DNA of 64,000 nt from Candidatus Phytoplasma tritici (GTDB lineage: Bacteria > Bacillota_I > Bacilli_A > Acholeplasmatales > Acholeplasmataceae): positions 248,001 through 312,000 of the forward strand of contig NZ_AVAO01000003.1 of assembly GCF_000495255.1 (NCBI RefSeq), read 5' to 3'. The notes under the pieces were generated by a model. The model had not been told where the DNA came from, did no database searches, and saw only the letters and a list, made by a program, of their open reading frames with translations. The translations under genes and the position numbers were made by a program. Shown one piece after another: positions 8,070-8,151 of this stretch (position 1 is the first letter of the stretch; every line of letters starts with the position of its first letter).

Positions 8070-8151
8070 TGGTGGGCCTAAATGTGTAACTTGAACCACC
8101 GACCTCACAATTATTAGGTGTGTACTCTATAACCAACTGATCTATAGTCCC
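8070..8151 (-). pseudogene. degenerate tRNA-Ile in the 16S-23S spacer
   Basis: The position and much of the sequence match the spacer tRNA-Ile (GAT) of phytoplasmas, but the cloverleaf is damaged. The anticodon loop reads CTAATAA (AAT in place of GAT) with a closing C-T mismatch. The D-stem GATC has no proper partner and about two extra bases follow the D-loop. After the T-loop TTCAAGT there are eight bases where five should complete the T-stem, and they do not pair with GGTGG. The acceptor has an A-C mismatch at position 4. CCA is kept. I infer a pseudo-tRNA; the functional copy should be in the second rRNA operon outside this window. A sequencing error would not easily explain this many changes. 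Confidence 0.75.

Follow-up and report, generated by a model that had tools for sequence, protein, structure and literature searches.

The window analysed here, a stretch of 64,000 nucleotides (nt) from 'Candidatus Phytoplasma tritici' (positions 248,001 to 312,000 of contig NZ_AVAO01000003.1, below C3), contains a ribosomal RNA (rRNA) operon encoded on the reverse strand. The operon has a full-length 16S rRNA gene at 8261..9793 (C3:256261-257793), which scored 1535.9 bits, and a 23S rRNA gene at 5151..8005, the 5' end of which was placed with Rfam and the 3' end of which is approximate, being set where the trailer arm begins. The spacer between the two genes contains, on the same strand at 8070..8151, a degenerate relic of tRNA-Ile, which was delimited by its scores and by its alignment with an intact copy.

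The relic is 82 nt long, compared with 77 nt for an intact tRNA-Ile. Its anticodon is AAT and not the GAT of a functional bacterial tRNA-Ile(GAU), four pairs of the cloverleaf are non-standard (including one acceptor-stem pair), and two extra bases in the D arm and three in the T arm depart from the normal stem lengths. The CCA end, the T-loop (TTCAAGT) and six of the seven acceptor pairs are intact. A preliminary description of this locus, made from the sequence alone, had regarded the spacer tRNA-Ile as decayed and had listed the AAT anticodon, several broken pairs, added bases (after the D-loop and in the T-stem) and the retained CCA, T-loop and most of the acceptor; the alignment and the Rfam and family covariance models bore out both the losses and the retained parts. 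Instead of a high cloverleaf score, the Rfam tRNA model (RF00005) gave 13.0 bits (E = 2.9 in a 121-base search), which is below the cut-off of 29 bits, whereas the copy in the partner operon reached 74.0 bits. ARAGORN called no tRNA at 8070-8151, and at minimum energy the relic folds into a structure other than a cloverleaf (-14.1 against -27.2 kcal/mol). Weak Rfam matches to snoZ40, rli53, snosnR71 and gyrA in this region were dismissed as chance, since all of them fell under the cut-offs of their families and the small nucleolar RNAs are eukaryotic. A covariance model made from ten intact phytoplasma tRNA-Ile copies matched exactly 8070-8151 with 58.9 bits (E about 2e-18), so the descent of the relic from tRNA-Ile is certain; intact phytoplasma copies scored 107.7-110.9 bits with the same model. 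This clear descent, together with a location colinear with the spacer tRNA-Ile, is the pattern of a pseudogene.

The genome comprises 611,462 bases in six contigs, and the second 16S rRNA gene is also found on C3, outside the window (C3:84702-86234). The spacer of this second operon encodes an intact tRNA-Ile(GAT) at C3:86341-86417, the copy with the 74.0 bits mentioned above, which is identical to the OY-M copy. The preliminary description had left two alternatives, namely that the other operon keeps the GAT gene, so that the two spacers differ within one genome, or that an essential tRNA has been lost. The intact copy at 86341-86417 settles the matter in favour of the first, and we rejected the loss of an essential tRNA. 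Genome-wide, 31 tRNAs scored above the Rfam cut-off, and ARAGORN, when applied to the loci around these 31, found no tRNA-Ile(GAT) besides that at 86341-86417; a single tRNA-Ile(GAU) gene is thus left in the genome. Note that the draft genome paper of the wheat blue dwarf phytoplasma gives 32 tRNAs by tRNAscan-SE (PMC4010473), and the relic may account for the difference from our count. Taken as a whole, these results make it very probable that the spacer tRNA-Ile has here become a pseudogene, still at an early stage of a decay through point mutations and slippage, with the partner operon supplying tRNA-Ile(GAU).

The direction of the changes was determined by comparison with both operon copies in each of three relatives (OY-M, AY-WB and G002). 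All eight substitutions and both insertions in the tRNA proved to be derived in the relic, and the partner copy has no derived change. Every one of the eight substitutions is from G or C to A or T, a bias that is expected because the genome has a G+C content of 27% (PMC4010473) and that suits the mutational decay of a redundant copy. Two insertions, that of the D arm and one of 4 bases in the spacer, have the appearance of small tandem duplications. The two operons differ most in the tRNA (10.4%), less in the two flanks of the spacer (4.8% and 2.8%) and least in the rRNA genes (0.27% for 16S and 0.44% for 23S, of which the first part was compared); the rRNA genes are therefore nearly identical, the spacer is drifting and the tRNA is drifting most.

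Such differences could in principle be an artefact of assembly or amplification, with two intact copies in reality and the changes arising from multiple displacement amplification (MDA), from joining by the polymerase chain reaction (PCR) or from a merging of operons or strains. In fact, the DNA behind the draft had been amplified by MDA, PCR was used to join contigs, and several 16SrI subgroups have been reported in wheat blue dwarf samples (PMC4010473). A merge, however, predicts a mosaic of known copies, and seven of the eight substituted bases and both insertions are absent from the partner and from both copies of the three closest relatives; the merging of operons cannot account for the variant bases, since most of them occur in no other copy. 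The changes are, moreover, concentrated in the spacer and its tRNA, with only 4 differing sites over 1500 bases of 16S, and their uniform direction, together with a compensated change in a helix around the tRNA (see below), bears the marks of evolution, unlike random error. Assembly error is thus an unlikely source of the relic, and the artefact explanation in general has in our view only a slim chance of being correct. The remaining substitution, a C-to-T change in the anticodon stem, is common to the relic and the tRNA-Ile of the tRNA-Tyr-headed operon of AY-WB (L065, 1778-1854), the spacer of which differs from its own partner spacer. This common base may indicate an earlier start of the spacer divergence, or a site that was hit twice. 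The exact pattern of the relic had no match in the species-level genome collection, which may omit the source genome, and this search thus revealed no further strain that carries it; the plasmid collection gave distant rRNA matches only.

A divergent but functional tRNA-Ile was also considered, in which the wobble A of an AAU anticodon would be deaminated to inosine and would read isoleucine codons. The anticodon is still of the isoleucine type, the CCA, the T-loop and most of the acceptor are retained, and an A34 deaminase is presumably present because the genome encodes tRNA-Arg(ACG). However, GAU is the bacterial choice for this codon box, and an intact GAU gene is already available. Further arguments against function are the four broken pairs (an acceptor pair among them), the three added T-arm and two added D-arm bases and the fold other than a cloverleaf, and we regard a working AAU tRNA as most improbable.

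The decay of the tRNA does not extend to the surrounding operon. The tRNA-Tyr gene called by ARAGORN upstream of the 16S rRNA gene (9912..9995; this and the following features are all on the reverse strand) distinguishes this operon, as the tRNA-Tyr-headed one, from its partner, and the same tRNA-Tyr-first order is found in AY-WB, 'Ca. P. luffae' and others. The 5' arm of the 16S processing stem was predicted by duplex formation in the 16S leader at 9873..9891, and its 3' arm, which is unchanged, lies at 8232..8250; the stem between leader and trailer has -40.6 kcal/mol in this operon and -38.3 kcal/mol in the partner. The corresponding values for the 23S stem are -35.2 and -37.7 kcal/mol, and the trailer arm of this stem, the counterpart of the 23S leader within the spacer, was located at 5099..5150, positions that are approximate because they were derived from the operon offset. 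The spacer also contains at 8028..8039 an unchanged element, GCTCTTTGAAAA, which we take to be boxA-like from what is known of bacterial rRNA operons. This element is the same in both operons and in close relatives, in which the processing-stem sequence also agrees with that of the relic operon. With its processing stems, its boxA-like element and its 16S rRNA gene retained, the operon looks functional and is probably active. A decay of the whole operon was therefore rejected, in view of the full-length 16S rRNA gene and the retained processing stems.

A helix encloses the slot of the tRNA. By duplex prediction, its 5' arm, TTTTTAATATT, is at 8154..8164 and its 3' arm, AATATTAAAAA, is at 8042..8052. 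The 5' arm has a G-to-T change and the 3' arm a C-to-A change against all relatives, and the second compensates the first: the only G-C pair of this A/T-rich helix has become T-A through changes in both arms, and the 11 pairs are retained. When five random G/C hits were simulated in the spacer, 0.5% of the runs gave a compensated pair and 15% a broken helix. Because the simulation was run after the pattern had been seen, its result is a lead that falls short of proof.

These observations raise two related possibilities. The relic may have been kept as an RNA-processing element, the remnant acceptor and CCA guiding, together with the enclosing helix, the cleavage between 16S and 23S rRNA, which would be compatible with the pseudogene interpretation. 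The survival of the 11-bp helix by a compensatory double change that is rare in the simulation is consistent with this possibility, as are the comparable duplexes that prediction places around the tRNA in the spacers of most phytoplasmas and the presence of both helix arms in the copy of 'Ca. P. luffae' that has lost its tRNA. The simulation is nevertheless post hoc and concerns one event only, some of the pairing comes cheaply in a helix so rich in A/T, and the tRNA part diverges faster than its flanks, contrary to what selection on that part would give; we consider it unlikely that the relic itself is maintained in this way. The second possibility, that the tRNA is dead while the enclosing helix is selected as a processing element of the spacer independent of the tRNA, is likewise doubtful. 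If it were true, a processing signal that needs no tRNA would be conserved in the spacers of phytoplasmas, and the compensated pair of the relic operon would be its visible trace.

Returning to the interpretation of the relic as a spare tRNA in early decay, we propose the following course. Phytoplasmas have two rRNA operons, and one tRNA-Ile copy would be spare because both operons carry tRNA-Ile(GAT) in their spacers. In this lineage, the homogenisation of the spacer of the tRNA-Tyr-headed operon with that of its partner would have ceased, after which G/C-to-A/T substitutions and small duplications would have accumulated in the tRNA to the point at which it lost its cloverleaf and probably its recognition by IleRS. 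The relic copy would then yield no functional tRNA, the intact copy of the other operon would provide tRNA-Ile(GAU), and the gene dose of this tRNA would have been halved without serious cost. The rRNA genes and processing signals would remain under selection, so the relic operon should still yield 16S and 23S rRNA. Three points weigh against this course: residual selection on the region could lie behind both the compensated pair of the enclosing helix and a double change within the anticodon stem (G-C to A-U), and the sequence is that of a draft with MDA-amplified DNA and PCR joins behind it (PMC4010473).

The loss of a spacer tRNA from one operon is already known in phytoplasmas. In 'Ca. P. 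stylosanthis' (Stylosanthes little leaf), one of the two spacers of rrnA and rrnB is without tRNA-Ile, and 'Ca. P. luffae' is named for the same loss (PMC7968740); the spacer heterogeneity of the former is also mentioned in PMC5123570, with reference to De La Rue et al. 2001. The present genome resembles that of 'Ca. P. stylosanthis' in having one operon without a working spacer tRNA-Ile and the other intact, although that species lacks the tRNA region (about 100 bp), whereas the 82-nt gene is still there in mutated form in the present case. In 'Ca. P. luffae' (G009; PMC8923039), one spacer likewise has an intact tRNA-Ile and the other a remnant, but most of the tRNA was deleted there and the operon affected is that before the tRNA-Val-Thr-Lys cluster (L066), while the relic shows point decay in the tRNA-Tyr-headed operon. 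Since opposite operons are affected, the two losses are independent. The present case thus shares with these two species the intact partner tRNA-Ile(GAT) and differs from them in a tRNA that is neither absent nor mostly deleted; judged from its sequence, the relic is an earlier stage of loss than either. A comparable situation was seen in 'Ca. P. oryzae' HN2022 (CP116038, G012), in which, as in the present genome, only one tRNA-Ile is altered. The second spacer copy (L073, 1516-1591) has two changes, a missing T-loop base and a mismatch in the anticodon stem, and scored 96.0 bits with the family model, compared with 110.7 bits for the other copy; unlike the relic, it is still called tRNA-Ile(GAT) by ARAGORN, and it may represent either a very early stage of such decay or an error in sequencing. 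OY-M, AY-WB, 'Ca. P. australiense' and 'Ca. P. mali' have the same order of 16S, spacer tRNA-Ile and 23S as the relic operon, but both of their spacer tRNA-Ile copies are intact, as are those of the remaining complete phytoplasma genomes examined. Our search of the literature for operon heterogeneity in subgroup 16SrI-C found nothing.

The differences between the operons also bear on typing. The two 16S rRNA genes (8261-9793 and C3:84702-86234) differ at four sites, and the virtual restriction patterns of their R16F2n/R2 fragments differ for three of the 17 standard typing enzymes (AluI, HaeIII and MseI). A typing result for this organism from the spacer, or even from 16S, depends on the operon that was cloned. 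This difference in pattern may be relevant to reports of several 16SrI subgroups in the wheat blue dwarf phytoplasma. With regard to the evolution of the group, the relic documents, for the aster yellows group, a loss of a spacer tRNA that is at an intermediate stage, and its location in the operon opposite to that affected in 'Ca. P. luffae' indicates that spacer tRNA loss has taken place at least two times in phytoplasmas.
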